Shown here: positions 34,218-41,623 of the stretch, piece after piece
Numbering within the stretch: position 1 is the stretch's first letter
How the letters are laid out: every line of letters begins with the position of its first letter
Assembly: GCA_009784375.1 (NCBI GenBank)
Contig: WRBV01000002.1
Coordinates: 62,001 to 126,000, forward strand
Direction: 5' to 3'
DNA length: 64,000 nucleotides
Origin: Bacillota bacterium
GTDB lineage: Bacteria > Bacillota > Clostridia > Christensenellales > UBA1242
Made by a program: the position numbers and the translations under genes
The notes under the pieces: model-generated
Databases searched by the model: none
What the model saw: the letters and a program-made list of their open reading frames with translations, nothing else
What the model was told of the DNA's origin: nothing

Positions 34218-34523
34218 TTAAAATCGACCGCATTCAGTTGTGTCTTCAAATCCACAGCGTGAGTGTTCGTGTTCATGACGACCATGTCCACCATGATGGT
34301 GTCCATGTTTGTGGCAACGGCAACGATGCTCTTCGCGTTCTTCTCGTCTTTCTTCTACCATACGGCATCTGAATTCGCAACGGCATACGCGACGTGGTTC
34401 TCGTCTTTCTTCGCGTCGTGGGCAACAAATCACACAGCAATGATGGTGGTGGTGTCTATGGCAATGGCAACGGTGTTCGTGTCTTTCGCGATTGCAAATT
34501 AAATCTCTTAAACAATGAAGCAT
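34218..34523 (-). CDS. His/Cys/Arg/Glu-rich small protein, possible metal chelator
   Basis: About 20 His and 15 Cys in 101 aa; GGAGA SD upstream of ATG. Confidence 0.6.
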   Translation of the reverse strand: MLHCLRDLICNRERHEHRCHCHRHHHHHCCVICCPRREERREPRRVCRCEFRCRMVEERREEREEHRCRCHKHGHHHGGHGRHEHEHSRCGFEDTTECGRF

Positions 34524-34630
34524 ACTTAAAAATCTCCTCTTGGAAAGTCTCTAGAAAACTTTCTACTTCAGTCTATGTATGTTGATATTTTCTTGACTAT
34601 TTTATGGTAATAATCTAGTATTAATTTGTA

Positions 34631-36478
34631 GTGAAAAAGCCCGCAAAGATAAAAAAGGATTATAATAAAGGGATAAGAAAATTCCTGTTTTTGTCTATGT
34701 TCTTTTTAATTGTTGTCGAGATTGTTGGTCTTCTTTTTCCGCTTATATTGCAGAGTGTAGTTGTCGCAATAAGTAATGACGCAAGCACGGCAGAGTTATT
34801 TGGTCGAAGTGGGCTTGTTCTTGGTTTTATTGTATTGATATTCATAGTAAATCTTATCGCTACCTATTTTATTTCGATTTATGCTAACAAGTATGCACAA
34901 AATGTAAGGCGAGAAGTATTTAACAAATTTCAACGAGTAAGTACCGAGACTATTGAGAACTTTGGAAAAGGAAAAGTTGTTCCAGCCGTATTGAACGACC
35001 CGTCTTGGATTGCGGTATATCAACGTAGGTTTATTGTTGCCGCTATTGTTGTGCCTGGTACTGTGTTCGGAAGTATGTTTATGATGTTCCAAGCAAATGT
35101 GATGTACAGCTTGATTGCCTTGGCAGCGGTTCCAATTATTGCTTTGTTTTATTTTATTAACATACGAAAAATGAACAAAGTAATTCCACCAAGTGTTGAG
35201 GCATTTGACGAGTACTTTGAAAATATAAAAGAAGGTATTACTGGGGCAAAGGACATACGTATTCTTGGAAAAGCTGAAGAGCGGTCACGAAAGTTTGAAA
35301 AGGTCGTAGATTTACAAAGACGGCAATCGATGAATGCCGATATGAGAAATAACTTCTCGGCGTCATTTAATTCTATTTTATTTACCATTATTACTGTTGG
35401 TATTATTATCTATGGTGTTAACACGGGTAATACCGAGACTATGTATCAACTTGCCGTGTTGAACACGGTTCTTATGTATATTGCTCGTATTCAATGGGCG
35501 TCTCACCAGGTCTTTGTATGGTTTGTCGAACATATGCCAAGGATATGGGTTACCAAAAAAAGATTACAAGAGGTCTATCGTTTGCCCGAAGTTCCTAACC
35601 AAGGTGGGCTTACATATATAACAAAGCCAGCAGAACCAACATTGTCTTTATCAAATTTGGAATTTATTTGGCCAAATGGTTCGCGGGGTATTAATCTCAG
35701 CCTTGATATTCCGTATAATACTCGCATAGCAATTGCGGGTGGAGTTGGAAGTGGGAAGAGTATATTGCCAAAGCTCTTGCTGCGGATGGAAGAGCCGTCT
35801 GGTGGTTGTATAAATTTGAATGGTATTGATATATCTTCGATTAATCAAGAATATTTACGTCGTGAAATTCTTGGTTACTGTGGTCCTAATTCACGTTTTA
35901 TCAATGGAACAATTCGAGACAATATGAAGATATTGTCGCCTAGTGTTTCGGATGAAGAGATATTAAGTATTTTCAACGCTTTGGGTGCCGATGATTTTAT
36001 AAAGAAATTCGGTGATAACTTCCTTGATTATCAATTAAATATAAATAAAAAACTTAGCGATGGAACGCGGAATATTTTGGGAATTGCTCGTTGTGCATTA
36101 AAGCCAGCATCAATTCATATATTCAACCAATGTTTCGACCATGTAAAACAAGAATACATTATTAATTTGATGGAATACCTCAAACAAAATTCAAAAACAT
36201 GTCTTTTCATATCATATGATCCATGGGTTTGCAGAAATTCAAATGAAGTCTATGTGTTAAAAAATGGAAAAATTACTGGTCAAGGAAAACATGCCGAGCT
36301 GTTGCGAGAAAATGCGGATTACAAGCGATTCTATCAATCTACAAGCGGAACAATTCCACAAGACGATGTCGCGGATGATTTAACATATGTGCAAGAAGTC
36401 ATTGATGAAGTGGTTGGAGAGCGAGAATCTTTTGATGGTATTACCCGAACACCAAGTGGTGGGGAGGTGGTGATATGA
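34631..36478 (+). CDS. ABC exporter half-transporter with degenerate NBD
   Basis: 6 TM, Walker A GGVGSGKS; signature LSDGT; Walker B region IHIFNQCF; H-loop position Tyr. Confidence 0.85.
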   Translation: MKKPAKIKKDYNKGIRKFLFLSMFFLIVVEIVGLLFPLILQSVVVAISNDASTAELFGRSGLVLGFIVLIFIVNLIATYFISIYANKYAQNVRREVFNKFQRVSTETIENFGKGKVVPAVLNDPSWIAVYQRRFIVAAIVVPGTVFGSMFMMFQANVMYSLIALAAVPIIALFYFINIRKMNKVIPPSVEAFDEYFENIKEGITGAKDIRILGKAEERSRKFEKVVDLQRRQSMNADMRNNFSASFNSILFTIITVGIIIYGVNTGNTETMYQLAVLNTVLMYIARIQWASHQVFVWFVEHMPRIWVTKKRLQEVYRLPEVPNQGGLTYITKPAEPTLSLSNLEFIWPNGSRGINLSLDIPYNTRIAIAGGVGSGKSILPKLLLRMEEPSGGCINLNGIDISSINQEYLRREILGYCGPNSRFINGTIRDNMKILSPSVSDEEILSIFNALGADDFIKKFGDNFLDYQLNINKKLSDGTRNILGIARCALKPASIHIFNQCFDHVKQEYIINLMEYLKQNSKTCLFISYDPWVCRNSNEVYVLKNGKITGQGKHAELLRENADYKRFYQSTSGTIPQDDVADDLTYVQEVIDEVVGERESFDGITRTPSGGEVVI

Positions 36479-38211
36479 TGAAAAAGCTTCGAACCAAGCC
36501 ATTGTTTCGTGTTCTTTCAATGTTCTCGGATCTTAAATGGAGAATTGTTTTATTCATATCTTTGGGTGCGATTGGTATTGTCCTGTTTTCATTCATGCCG
36601 TTTTTTACAAGAAACATATTCGACAGTCTGGAAGAATCTATCTTGTATGGAACTAATCCCGAACTTTCATTTATATATAGACAGTTATTTTTGTTCGGGT
36701 TACTTGCTTTGTTTAACGAAGTTTTCCAGGTAGTAGGTTTGCTAACGATAATCAAATACGAAGCCGAGATTAAAGAAAAGAATATTATAAATGCAAAAAG
36801 AAAGCTTGACCTTGTTCCGATAAGTTTTCTCGAGAACTATGCCGAGGGTGACCTTGCAAGACGTGTTTCGGCGCTTGCTGGACAGATTGTAAGGAATTTA
36901 CTTTCTATTATATATCGTGTTGTACGTACTGTTTTCTTCTTTGTGACTACCGCTATAATTATGTTCTCGATTAATTGGATTCTTGCACTTGTTGTTATTA
37001 TATCGGTACCACTTTGTTTGTTCGGCATACGCTTTATTTCAAAAAGAACCCAAAAGCTTTTCAATAATAACAATGCCACATTGAACGAAGTTTCGGCATA
37101 TGTTGACCAGAAAATGTCACTTCACCAGTTCAACAAAGTTCATGGCATCGGTGGAGCAGAAGAAGAATACGAAGTATATAACAAGCGCGAAGTCAAATCA
37201 CGAGTTGGCGAGGAAATGGCTATGGAGCTTAACACCATATTCATTTTCTTTATTCAAAATTTCATGGCATTACTTGTTACCGTTGTATTTGGATTATTGT
37301 TCTTGAATGGTGCGGTAGCGATTGGTGCGTTACCTGCCTTTATTATATTCTCGTCAAGGTTCTTGGCAAATTCGGTTATTGTAAGTGAAACGACGAATAT
37401 CTTGCAGGCTCTTAATGCTCGTGCGCCTATGGTTTTCGAAATCTTGGATTATCCAGACACATTGACCGAAAAAGAACATATCGATATTGACAAAATCAAG
37501 GACATTGAATTTAAAAATGTAAGCCTTGAATCACATGGCGAATTGGTATTAAAAGATATTAACTTTACAATACCAAAAGGTTCAAGTGTCGCAATTGTAG
37601 GTCCGACGGGTGGTGGTAAAACAAAGATAGTTGATGTATTGTCAAAGATGGAGCTTGTAACATCGGGTGAGGTCATCATAAACGATGTGAACCTTGAAGA
37701 AGTTAACCGAGATTCATATTACAAGTTAATCGGTATTGCGTTTGAGCGTCCGTTTATTTTCAAAGGAACAATTGCCGAGAACGTACTTTACGGAGTTCGC
37801 CGTGCAATGCCTGAACAAGTTATGAATGTAACCCGAAAGCTTGGCAGTCATGATTTCATCGAAAAATTGCCGCAACGTTACGAGACCGAACTAACACCCG
37901 AGACCCACTTACTTACGACTTCTCAAAAACAGGCGATTAATATCGCACGTACTGTGTTAAAGGCAAATGACCTTGTGATATTTAATGGTGCGTATTCAAG
38001 TGTTGACACAGTAACCGAGAAAGAAACCTTTGAAAAAATTATGAGTACCAACGCAAAACAAACAAAGATTTTTGTTACCAACCGTCTTTCAAGTGTTGAA
38101 AAATGCGATCACATTATATTGATGGAAGGCGGCGAAGCGGTAGAGCAAGGCACACATAAAGAACTTATGCGAAAGCGTGGCAGATATTACGAAGCGTTTA
38201 TTAATGGGTAG
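36475..38211 (+). CDS. ABC exporter half-transporter with degenerate NBD (partner)
   Basis: 6 TM, Walker A GPTGGGKT; LTTSQKQ; LVIFNGAYSSVD; VTNRLSS; 4-nt ATGA overlap with upstream gene. Confidence 0.85.
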   Translation: MMKKLRTKPLFRVLSMFSDLKWRIVLFISLGAIGIVLFSFMPFFTRNIFDSLEESILYGTNPELSFIYRQLFLFGLLALFNEVFQVVGLLTIIKYEAEIKEKNIINAKRKLDLVPISFLENYAEGDLARRVSALAGQIVRNLLSIIYRVVRTVFFFVTTAIIMFSINWILALVVIISVPLCLFGIRFISKRTQKLFNNNNATLNEVSAYVDQKMSLHQFNKVHGIGGAEEEYEVYNKREVKSRVGEEMAMELNTIFIFFIQNFMALLVTVVFGLLFLNGAVAIGALPAFIIFSSRFLANSVIVSETTNILQALNARAPMVFEILDYPDTLTEKEHIDIDKIKDIEFKNVSLESHGELVLKDINFTIPKGSSVAIVGPTGGGKTKIVDVLSKMELVTSGEVIINDVNLEEVNRDSYYKLIGIAFERPFIFKGTIAENVLYGVRRAMPEQVMNVTRKLGSHDFIEKLPQRYETELTPETHLLTTSQKQAINIARTVLKANDLVIFNGAYSSVDTVTEKETFEKIMSTNAKQTKIFVTNRLSSVEKCDHIILMEGGEAVEQGTHKELMRKRGRYYEAFING

Positions 38212-38369: not shown

Positions 38370-38537
38370 ACCGAGTGTTTCTGTGTAAATATAGTTGTTG
38401 GTTTAAAAGAAAAAAACGGGAGAAACAAGAATGCATAACGTCATATGAGTGATGTTTTATGATATATATAAGACGATATTAGTCATAGACAACCTATTTT
38501 TCTATTGATATACTTTAGTAATAGAAAGGGGAAACAT

Positions 38538-39203
38538 ATGAAAAAATTACTTGTTATGTTGCCAGCGGTATTGGCAATTGTGTTTGCATCAGTATTCTTG
38601 GTTGGATGTCGAAATCGTGATGGAATTTATGACCCTGGTGGAGAGTTTTGTTATGAACGCGTTTGGGTTTTTTTAAATGAAGAATTTATTTATCCTGGTA
38701 GGATTTGGACATACAAAGATTTTCCAATATTAAATTTATCGTATGTTGATAATGATCCATTTCGAGACTATCATTTTCCGTGGGAATCAATTAATCCAGA
38801 TACAGTAAGTTCACTAGCTCTTCATATAGCACAACCAGGTAGACAAAATATATTGCGTGCAAGGCATGAATTAAACAAAATGGAAGTAGTTGATACTGCG
38901 TATTTAAGTAACGAGTTTGGTATGGGTGGTGGCATAAATCCATCTGTGGTGAGTCGTGCTAATGGTGGGGGAGCATTTATTTCGCAAGATGCAATTTATT
39001 ATTCAGAAGAAGATTTTACATTTACAGAAATACTGGTTGTATTAACTGATGAATACTATCATGATCTTGCAGGTCGAGGGTCTATTTGGCCAATTTTTGT
39101 CGTGCTTGGTTTTATAGCTACTATTGTTTTAATATTCGGAGTATTAGCTATTTCGAGCGTTATAAAAGCAAATAAAGAAAATAAAAAAGAGGATAAGAAA
39201 TGA
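38538..39203 (+). CDS. Predicted lipoprotein with C-terminal TM
   Basis: MKKLLVMLPAVLAIVFASVFLVGCRN lipobox; C-terminal hydrophobic segment and KKEDKK tail. Confidence 0.65.
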   Translation: MKKLLVMLPAVLAIVFASVFLVGCRNRDGIYDPGGEFCYERVWVFLNEEFIYPGRIWTYKDFPILNLSYVDNDPFRDYHFPWESINPDTVSSLALHIAQPGRQNILRARHELNKMEVVDTAYLSNEFGMGGGINPSVVSRANGGGAFISQDAIYYSEEDFTFTEILVVLTDEYYHDLAGRGSIWPIFVVLGFIATIVLIFGVLAISSVIKANKENKKEDKK

Positions 39204-41623
39204 AAAATATATTTGCAAAGTTATTTGGAATTACTGTATTGACTGGGCTTGCTTTATTTTCTTGGGGGTTTGCACCTGTAAATGAAGAGTATGAACAGCC
39301 AGTAATTGTTGTATGTGATGAAACTTTTGCTCGAAACCTTGAAAGAGGCAAGGCACTTGTTGATGAGACATTGGAAAGATATCGTACATTGACAAGAAAT
39401 GGTTTGGTATATGATGACCAGTTCGCGGGCATTTGGTTTTGCGGTGATGGGCACTTGAATATTGGTATAACAAACCAATTACAAAATATAACAAGAAATT
39501 CCTATGTAATATATCATGTGCGTGAATTCTCATACAATTTTTTAAATGATATGCATAGTGTAATTACAAATTTGATGCCAAGATATTCAATTTGGGGAAG
39601 TGCAACCACATCAAGATATAATCGAGTTGAGATAAGTTTCAGTAATATAGAATACAAAGCAAGGATTATTAATCATCTTGAGAGATACTCACTTTTTGAG
39701 GAAAATGCAATTTTATTTATCGAAGCAGAACGTGGATTTGTAATGCCAGATCCTCACCTTGTTGTGCCACCGCCTATTATTAATCCCCCTGTACGCGATA
39801 TACGTGCTGGTCAACAGGTATCTCATAGTATAATTAATTTTGGCAGTATAGGTGCGAAAGCAGTTTGTAACAGAACTGGGAGAAGAGGAATTTTAACCAA
39901 CGAACATGTGATTCCTGCAAACACTCGTTTAATGCATGGGAGTAGATATACTAATCTTATTAATCCAATGCCAATTGGAATAAGGGCACAAGCACAAATC
40001 GGAGGAAAAGTGGATGCGGCATTTGTTCCTTTTGATAATCCAAACCATTGGTATTTTACATCGTCTGCATCATATGGTAATACGGTAATTCCGAGGACCT
40101 ATATGTCAAATCGAAATTCGATTATCGAAGGTCTTCCTGTTGTGAAATTTGGTGCTACTACTGGACGGACATATGGAATAATACAAAATACTGATGTATC
40201 CTTTATTAGTACGGATGACAGGCAATTTACAAATAAAATTAATCACAATGCTTTTGCCTTACGTGGGGATAGTGGCGGGCCTCTTTTCTTGGTTGGTGGA
40301 CATGGAAGGCATATTCTATTGGGAATAAATTCGCATGTTTTAGGTGCATCTACAATGGCAAGTAATATCCACAATGTTATAGAGGCGTTGGACATTACAA
40401 TAGTAAGTGAAGGTGAGGTGCTTAATTTAATTGATGATTATCAGACGCAATATTTACCAGTCGCAGGGAGCGAAATATTATTCCAACACAATTACGCATC
40501 ATTCATGGTAGAGATGTTTGCAAATGATGGCAGTATAAAATCATTTAGCTTTAGTGGTGATGGAGAGCGAACAACAATTTCTAGTCCAAGTTGGGGTAAT
40601 GGTTTTTTAAATGATAAGTATCTCTTTATAAGAGGAAGACTTGTTTTTTATGAAGATAGATTTAGAATAAATGCAACAATAAGTGAAACAGAAGCATTTC
40701 ATCAAACCTTTTTTGGTAATCCAGGTGCAAGATTTACATTTATGAGAATTGTGTCAACAACAATGTCCGAATGGAGTGTTATAAGTGGACCGCTTGCTCA
40801 TACAATTCATACCGCAGAAGAATTGAATAATATTCGTAACAACTTGAACGGTGTTTTCATCCTTGGCGATAATATCGACTTACGAGGGTTTGAACAATGG
40901 AATCCGATTGCGAATTTTCGGGGGATATTGGATGGCAATGGGTTTTTTATTTCCAATATGCATATAAACCGTGTTGGGGCGAATTGGTCGTCGCATGTGT
41001 TTCTTGGGTTGTTTGCAAACCTTGGTGGGACTGTGCGTAATTTAGGAATTTGCAGCAGTACGATAACGGTAACAAATAACCAAAATGGGGTCGGTTGGGT
41101 GTGTGCAGGATTTATTGCGGGGACACTTGAACCGAATGGACGGGTCGAGGATGTTATTATCGTGGACACAAATTATTTAAGTGTATATCGCCACAGGTCA
41201 CAAATTGGTATGGTTGTTGGATATTCATATGGAACGATTACTGGGAATTGGGTTATTGGTGCGCGGCTTTCTGGGAATGGTGATATGGGTGGAATTGTTG
41301 GGGGAATGTATGGTGGGGTTGTCGAGGGTAATGTGGTTAATTGGTTGACAATATCTCATACGCATAATAATACTAACCGAGGTGTTGGTGGTATTGTCGG
41401 CTATCAAAACAGGGGGAGTGTTATAAATAACCGCGTGGACAGAGGTGGGATAAGTTGGATGAATACGGGCGGTCCATTTATAGGAACTATATCAGGTCGG
41501 AGCAGAAATGGGGCTTTTGATGGTAATTCTGCAAGCTCGATTAACCTTACAACGCGAGATCCGCGCGGTCAATTCAGCAGTTATACGCGACCACTTGTCG
41601 TTCAACGCGGTCTAATTGGGTAA
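39200..41623 (+). CDS. Secreted trypsin-like serine protease with C-terminal GLUG-like repeats
   Basis: 'LTNEHV', 'KVDAAFVPFD', 'RGDSGGPLF' triad contexts; 'GGIVGGMYGGVVEGN...GGIVGYQNRGSVINN'. Confidence 0.75.
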   Translation: MKNIFAKLFGITVLTGLALFSWGFAPVNEEYEQPVIVVCDETFARNLERGKALVDETLERYRTLTRNGLVYDDQFAGIWFCGDGHLNIGITNQLQNITRNSYVIYHVREFSYNFLNDMHSVITNLMPRYSIWGSATTSRYNRVEISFSNIEYKARIINHLERYSLFEENAILFIEAERGFVMPDPHLVVPPPIINPPVRDIRAGQQVSHSIINFGSIGAKAVCNRTGRRGILTNEHVIPANTRLMHGSRYTNLINPMPIGIRAQAQIGGKVDAAFVPFDNPNHWYFTSSASYGNTVIPRTYMSNRNSIIEGLPVVKFGATTGRTYGIIQNTDVSFISTDDRQFTNKINHNAFALRGDSGGPLFLVGGHGRHILLGINSHVLGASTMASNIHNVIEALDITIVSEGEVLNLIDDYQTQYLPVAGSEILFQHNYASFMVEMFANDGSIKSFSFSGDGERTTISSPSWGNGFLNDKYLFIRGRLVFYEDRFRINATISETEAFHQTFFGNPGARFTFMRIVSTTMSEWSVISGPLAHTIHTAEELNNIRNNLNGVFILGDNIDLRGFEQWNPIANFRGILDGNGFFISNMHINRVGANWSSHVFLGLFANLGGTVRNLGICSSTITVTNNQNGVGWVCAGFIAGTLEPNGRVEDVIIVDTNYLSVYRHRSQIGMVVGYSYGTITGNWVIGARLSGNGDMGGIVGGMYGGVVEGNVVNWLTISHTHNNTNRGVGGIVGYQNRGSVINNRVDRGGISWMNTGGPFIGTISGRSRNGAFDGNSASSINLTTRDPRGQFSSYTRPLVVQRGLIG

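Follow-up and report, generated by a model that had tools for sequence, protein, structure and literature searches.

The gene pair and its layout

Many ABC exporters have one dead ATPase site, and the question of why such a site is tolerated has long been asked. The gene pair analysed here raises a further one: whether an exporter in which both sites are apparently dead is still kept by selection, and for what job. The window is a stretch of 64,000 nucleotides (G000:C2:62001-126000) from an assembly of 1.08 Mb that is 85% complete. Subunit 1 (SU1, 34631-36478, + strand) has a GTG start and encodes 615 aa, and subunit 2 (SU2, 36475-38211, + strand) has an ATG start and encodes 578 aa. Each is a half-exporter with the Pfam domains ABC_membrane and ABC_tran, and two such adjoining half-transporters form the layout of a heterodimeric ABC exporter. 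Both ORFs were verified as intact, as the original prediction had stated, and the two frames share 4 nt (36475-36478). This overlap was seen again in most genomes with the pair, which suggests translational coupling that would supply SU1 and SU2 in equal amounts.

Upstream of SU1, 9 nt separate its GTG start from putative promoter-like hexamers TTGACT-17-TAGTAT (34593-34621, + strand); promoter-like sites in this upstream region were no more frequent than in shuffles. A ribosome-binding site was not evident before the GTG in 34593-34640. Considering this together with the position of the hexamers, a leaderless SU1 transcript is an unproven possibility.

Catalytic motifs of the window pair

The motifs of both subunits were aligned to those of solved exporters, and each motif column fell where it had been placed originally. 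All the catalytic motifs of SU1 and SU2 in the window were changed except Walker A. In SU1, Walker A is retained as GGVGSGKS (35738-35761), the Q-loop region LGYCGPNSRF (35870-35899) carries Pro419 in place of Gln, and the signature reads LSDGT instead of LSGGQ (36053-36067). The Walker B of SU1, IHIFNQ, has Asn499 in place of Asp, followed by Gln500 (36125-36130), where ordinary relatives have Asp-Asp, and its H-loop has Tyr529 (36215-36217), where ordinary relatives have Gln. In SU2, Walker A is retained as GPTGGGKT (37600-37623), the Q-loop Gln is replaced by Glu424 (37744-37746) and the signature reads LTTSQ instead of LSGGQ (37912-37926). The Walker B of SU2, LVIFNG, shows Asp changed to Asn504 and the catalytic Glu changed to Gly505 (37984-37989), and the H-loop His is changed to Asn536 (38080-38082). 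All these motifs are on the + strand. A change of Walker B Asp to Asn has been termed hydrolysis-deficient in the TAP1 NBD (PMC4242082).

The same columns were read in 83 subunits of ordinary exporters from the same order (36 of SU1 type and 47 of SU2 type), taking only the rows which cover each catalytic column. Every column had the expected residue with a single exception, an Asp for Glu, whereas in the clade of dead pairs these columns showed either free variation or fixation of dead residues. The alignment to solved exporters and these ordinary relatives together rule out that the motif columns were misassigned. No composite ATPase site of the pair has the Walker B Asp, catalytic Glu, His, Q-loop Gln and LSGGQ together.

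Distribution in related genomes

A search for the same degeneration in related genomes had been proposed earlier and was run with a profile against 309 genomes of the family. SU1 was found in 17 genomes of three genera (five in g1, two in g4 and ten in g51), which is every genome examined of these genera. SU2 adjoins SU1 in every region read, and short ORFs were seen only in G224 and G226, at contig ends. Four other genomes of the window genus have an intact orthologous pair with 48-55% (SU1) and 58-61% (SU2) identity to the window, and G007, of another genus, has an intact pair with 43% and 49% identity respectively. All the genomes with the pair are metagenome assemblies, reduced to about 1 Mb.

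A wider search with strict cut-offs, scoring only the best candidates per genome, gave no further member among 396 sampled genomes of the order or 391 of the class; the two best order matches (G393 and G577) had ordinary motifs in the SU1-type subunit. The search for related loci with a single sequence found none, while that with an alignment gave six named records, all MAGs. Four of these are named Lab288P1 and come from Labiotermes labralis (hindgut compartment P1), one is Co191P1, from P1 of Cornitermes, and one is a Christensenellaceae bacterium. These sample codes are explained in a study that describes P1 as highly alkaline (PMC7024585). The carriers of the pair are related gut bacteria, several of them demonstrably from termites.

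Erosion of the ATPase sites across the clade

The SU1 signature was degenerate in all the clade members. The Asn-Gln of SU1 Walker B is fixed in all seven genomes of g1 and g4, and the H-loop Tyr is present in six of these seven; in g51 the Walker B region reads IFDGSF, IFDRSF or similar. The SU1 Walker A Lys is present in 8 of 16 dead-clade sequences, being lost in G004 and replaced by Arg in seven of the nine aligned g51 genomes. Among the SU2 sequences of the clade, Asn, His or Ser takes the place of the Walker B Asp, which one genome retains, and Glu, Asp or Gly that of the Q-loop Gln. The SU2 Walker A Lys is present in all seven g1 and g4 sequences. Both NBDs of the window have a P-loop, whereas in g51 the P-loop pattern is absent from its place in every SU2 sequence covering it, including that of G230, the most divergent member of the genus. 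The SU2 subunits of G002 and G004 are less eroded, with Glu and His present and the Walker B Asp and Q-loop Gln lost, so that the clade offers an erosion series from partly eroded sites to a subunit free of the P-loop.

Since the motifs are altered in all the clade members read, the earlier claim that both sites are apparently catalytically dead held at the level of sequence, and it is strongly supported that SU1-SU2 would not hydrolyse ATP. A slow non-canonical ATPase at one site, with which the pair would still be an ATP-driven exporter, is very unlikely. The Glu and His kept beside the lost Asp in G002 and G004 and the D-loop Asp kept in 16 of 16 SU2 sequences (D511 in the window) would agree with it; however, these two genomes are the least eroded, the window and g51 also lack Glu and His, and the matching SU1 signature is degenerate everywhere.

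It is also improbable, though less so, that nucleotide is bound and not hydrolysed, its binding and release acting as the switch of a sensor or a nucleotide-gated facilitator. The Walker A Lys counts given above for SU1 and for SU2 of g1 and g4 are consistent with such a switch, and Asp to Asn and Glu to Gln are ATP-trapping changes used in exporters (PMC4242082). Against it, SU2 of g51 has no P-loop, SU1 of g51 has mostly Arg for Lys, and the usual magnesium ligands are altered (Walker B Asp and Q-loop Gln, with the Walker A Ser/Thr altered in several g1 sequences of SU2 and SU1). Nucleotide sensing, which the original prediction had offered as a function, therefore appears unlikely as one shared by the clade, because g51 lacks the usual means of nucleotide binding at SU2 and mostly at SU1, yet its pairs are orthologous and equally constrained.

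Selection on the pair

The dN/dS of the pair was calculated across relatives, as had been proposed. Among g51 pairs with dS of about 1.3-1.8, it was 0.07-0.13 (SU1) and 0.04-0.11 (SU2), and NBD and TMD gave similar values; these ratios point to purifying selection and are approximate because dS is near saturation. Amino acid identity within g51 was 73-87% for the dead pair, as compared to 89-92% for SecA, 80-84% for SpoIIE and 74-82% for the amidase. NBD identity was 72-81% within most of the genus.

It is hardly credible that the pair consists of decaying pseudogenes or is an assembly artefact. The free variation of the SU2 motif residues and the origin of the pair in reduced, metagenome-assembled genomes would fit decay or artefact, but the ORFs are intact in 17 genomes under the low dN/dS given above, the 4-nt overlap is kept in most of them and the SU1 Asn-Gln is fixed across seven genomes. 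Neither relaxed selection nor interrupted frames were observed, and pseudogene decay is ruled out by the intact frames and dN/dS unless dS is badly misestimated. The earlier view that simple decay does not account for the pair is thus borne out.

The balance of constraint was compared with that in ordinary pairs, in which the NBD is better conserved and the TMD/NBD identity ratio is 0.53-0.56 across genera and 0.84-0.91 within genera. In the dead clade this ratio is 0.85-1.06. The shift indicates that the membrane domain now bears a larger share of the constraint, with the NBD still constrained. The equal constraint on NBDs and TMDs speaks against the function proposed below, since it points to a role of the NBDs which that function does not explain.

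Ancestry and structure models

The tree of 115 exporter subunits was built with FastTree. The dead SU1 and the dead SU2 sequences each form one clade with support of 100, and the two clades show matching internal branching. The SU1 clade lies in that half of the exporter tree which holds the degenerate-site subunits of ordinary TM287/288-type exporters, and the SU2 clade in the opposite half, with their canonical subunits; the exact neighbour of SU2 is subject to a long-branch warning. This placement implies that the ancestor already had one degenerate site, and that the new step was the loss of the other. The ancestral type of SU1 had Asp-Asp and Gln and was already without the catalytic Glu and His, as is the degenerate half of TM287/288-type exporters. 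The double loss claimed at first is therefore correct in that both sites are dead, but it does not represent two independent losses: the exporter lost its single remaining competent site. In the favoured explanation, hydrolysis had been lost in both composite sites before the three genera diverged.

The AlphaFold model of SU1 was good in the NBD only, where the blocks had pLDDT mostly of 80-90. A Foldseek search with this model ranked MsRv1273c/72c and TM287/288 first, with global TM-scores that were low because the domain arrangement is uncertain. The SU2 model was poor (mean pLDDT 53.7, from a seven-row alignment), and SU2 matches TM288 by sequence. Like SU1-SU2, TM287/288 of Thermotoga maritima and MsRv1273c/72c consist of two TMD-NBD half-exporters, and their degenerate/canonical asymmetry is the one inherited by the pair; these exporters keep one competent ATPase site, whereas SU1-SU2 has lost that too, and SU2 of g51 the P-loop as well. 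The window genome also has an ordinary pair (G000:C5:55490-59052) with the same order of gene types and the same fold family, in which the Walker A motifs, LDEATSSVD, AHRLST and the signatures are intact. An ordinary paralogue with its motifs intact thus coexists with the dead pair in one cell. CFTR and SUR2 are reported with one degenerate site, not two (PMC7756269). In a literature search, with most subscription journals outside its reach, no description of a conserved ABC exporter dead at both sites came up.

Membrane domain residues and proposed function

Residues specific to the dead clade were located in the membrane domains, with helix numbers taken from hydropathy. Over 15 dead sequences, 32 of 319 TMD columns of SU1 and 36 of 318 of SU2 were invariant. 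SU1 Glu30 in helix 1 (34718-34720, + strand) was found in 15 of the 15 dead sequences covering the site, and ordinary relatives have Val, Ala, Thr or Ser there, never Glu. SU2 Arg151 in helix 3 (36925-36927, + strand) is invariant in the clade; ordinary relatives have mostly Ser, Thr or Asn and only 4 of 47 have Arg. In helix 6 of SU2, Arg295 and Asn299 (37357-37371, + strand) are both invariant, and Asn299 takes the place of the Pro found in 41 of 47 ordinary relatives. Asn253 in helix 5 of SU2 is likewise invariant and clade-specific. In a cytoplasmic loop of SU1, one that contacts the NBDs in exporters, Asp208 stands for a universal Val (V208 to D) and Arg218 for a common Glu (E218 to R). 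The membrane helices of the clade therefore carry conserved charged residues, as would be looked for in a transporter derived from an exporter TMD.

As the pair is intact and under strong selection despite its dead ATPase, its job is probably independent of ATP hydrolysis. Judged from sequence, SU1-SU2 may be an exporter with a dead ATPase that has taken on a new role as a membrane protein working without ATP. A passive facilitator or an ion-coupled transporter would be its most likely form, and this reading is considered to have about an even chance of being correct. The dead exporter would be kept for the job of its membrane domains. The NBDs, with their conserved fold and the rewired loop, could have become a structural dimer that serves as a scaffold for coupling. 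The membrane dimer could move a substrate or ion without ATP hydrolysis through the new membrane charges, with SU1 Glu30, SU2 Arg151 and SU2 Arg295 with Asn299 proposed as an intramembrane charge cluster. There are precedents for such movement. The membrane domains of MsbA and LmrA without NBDs showed ion-coupled transport (PMC4979069, PMC6155054), and the TAP D-loop mutant D674A, dead in hydrolysis, works as a nucleotide-gated facilitator (PMC4242082). The MsbA and LmrA domains are, however, engineered truncations of working ATPases, whereas in SU1-SU2 catalysis was lost naturally and the NBD fold was kept. The TAP mutant, CFTR and SUR show exporter folds acting as facilitator, channel or regulator, and the TAP mutant requires bound nucleotide (PMC4242082).

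The narrower reading, that a natural ABC exporter clade has turned into a secondary (ion-coupled) transporter or channel with a new charge cluster fixed across both subunits, is offered tentatively and is somewhat doubtful. The new membrane charges would suit a path for a substrate or ion no less well than the non-transport role that the original prediction had suggested; stabilisation of the dimer or binding of a partner protein would explain them equally. SUR subunits, which regulate Kir6 channels, are the model for a pair that does no transport. On such a reading SU1-SU2 would act as a scaffold, receptor or regulator in the membrane and would bind a partner protein through its NBD dimer and membrane charges. 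This is rather unlikely, even though the SU1 NBD is predicted to be folded, the NBDs are conserved within most of g51 though catalytically empty, and the changes at positions 208 and 218 fit a rewired interface. The clade-specific charges sit within membrane helices, no partner gene consistently adjoins the pair, and the amidase is not beside it in four of the five g1 genomes. Nor was a clue to the substrate obtained, as no single gene neighbour was common to all the genomes with the pair.

As a natural experiment, a clade that has lost its last live site and is still selected could show what a membrane half and an empty NBD dimer can do without ATP. If the pair transports, it would be a natural case for the disputed idea of ABC exporter membrane domains driven by ion gradients.

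Neighbouring genes

A small Cys/His-rich protein of 101 aa (34218-34523, - strand) is divergent from SU1. Its relative in G002 (L067:11980-12330), which has no Pfam family, lies in the equivalent divergent position, and no counterpart turned up next to the pair in the remaining genomes compared. Downstream are two genes that overlap by 4 nt. The first (38505-39203, + strand) encodes a putative lipoprotein whose C-terminal part has a membrane helix, and the second (39200-41623, + strand) a secreted protein of 807 aa with a trypsin-like match that is weak; relatives of these two were not found in the neighbourhoods compared.

Genes for SecA, SpoIIE, RecR and a peptidoglycan amidase lie near the g51 pair and in parts of g4 and g1, and were rejected as shared partners since they are not near the window pair. 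SpoIIE and the peptidoglycan amidase (Amidase_3, CwlD-like) occur near the pair in L067, L070 and L109-L118, all in genomes of about 1 Mb, which hints that spore formation, or remnants of its programme, may persist in these reduced bacteria. Adjoining the amidase in g51 (L109:7402-8073 and equivalents) is a gene with no Pfam match that evolves fast, showing 41-52% identity against the 73-87% of the dead pair.
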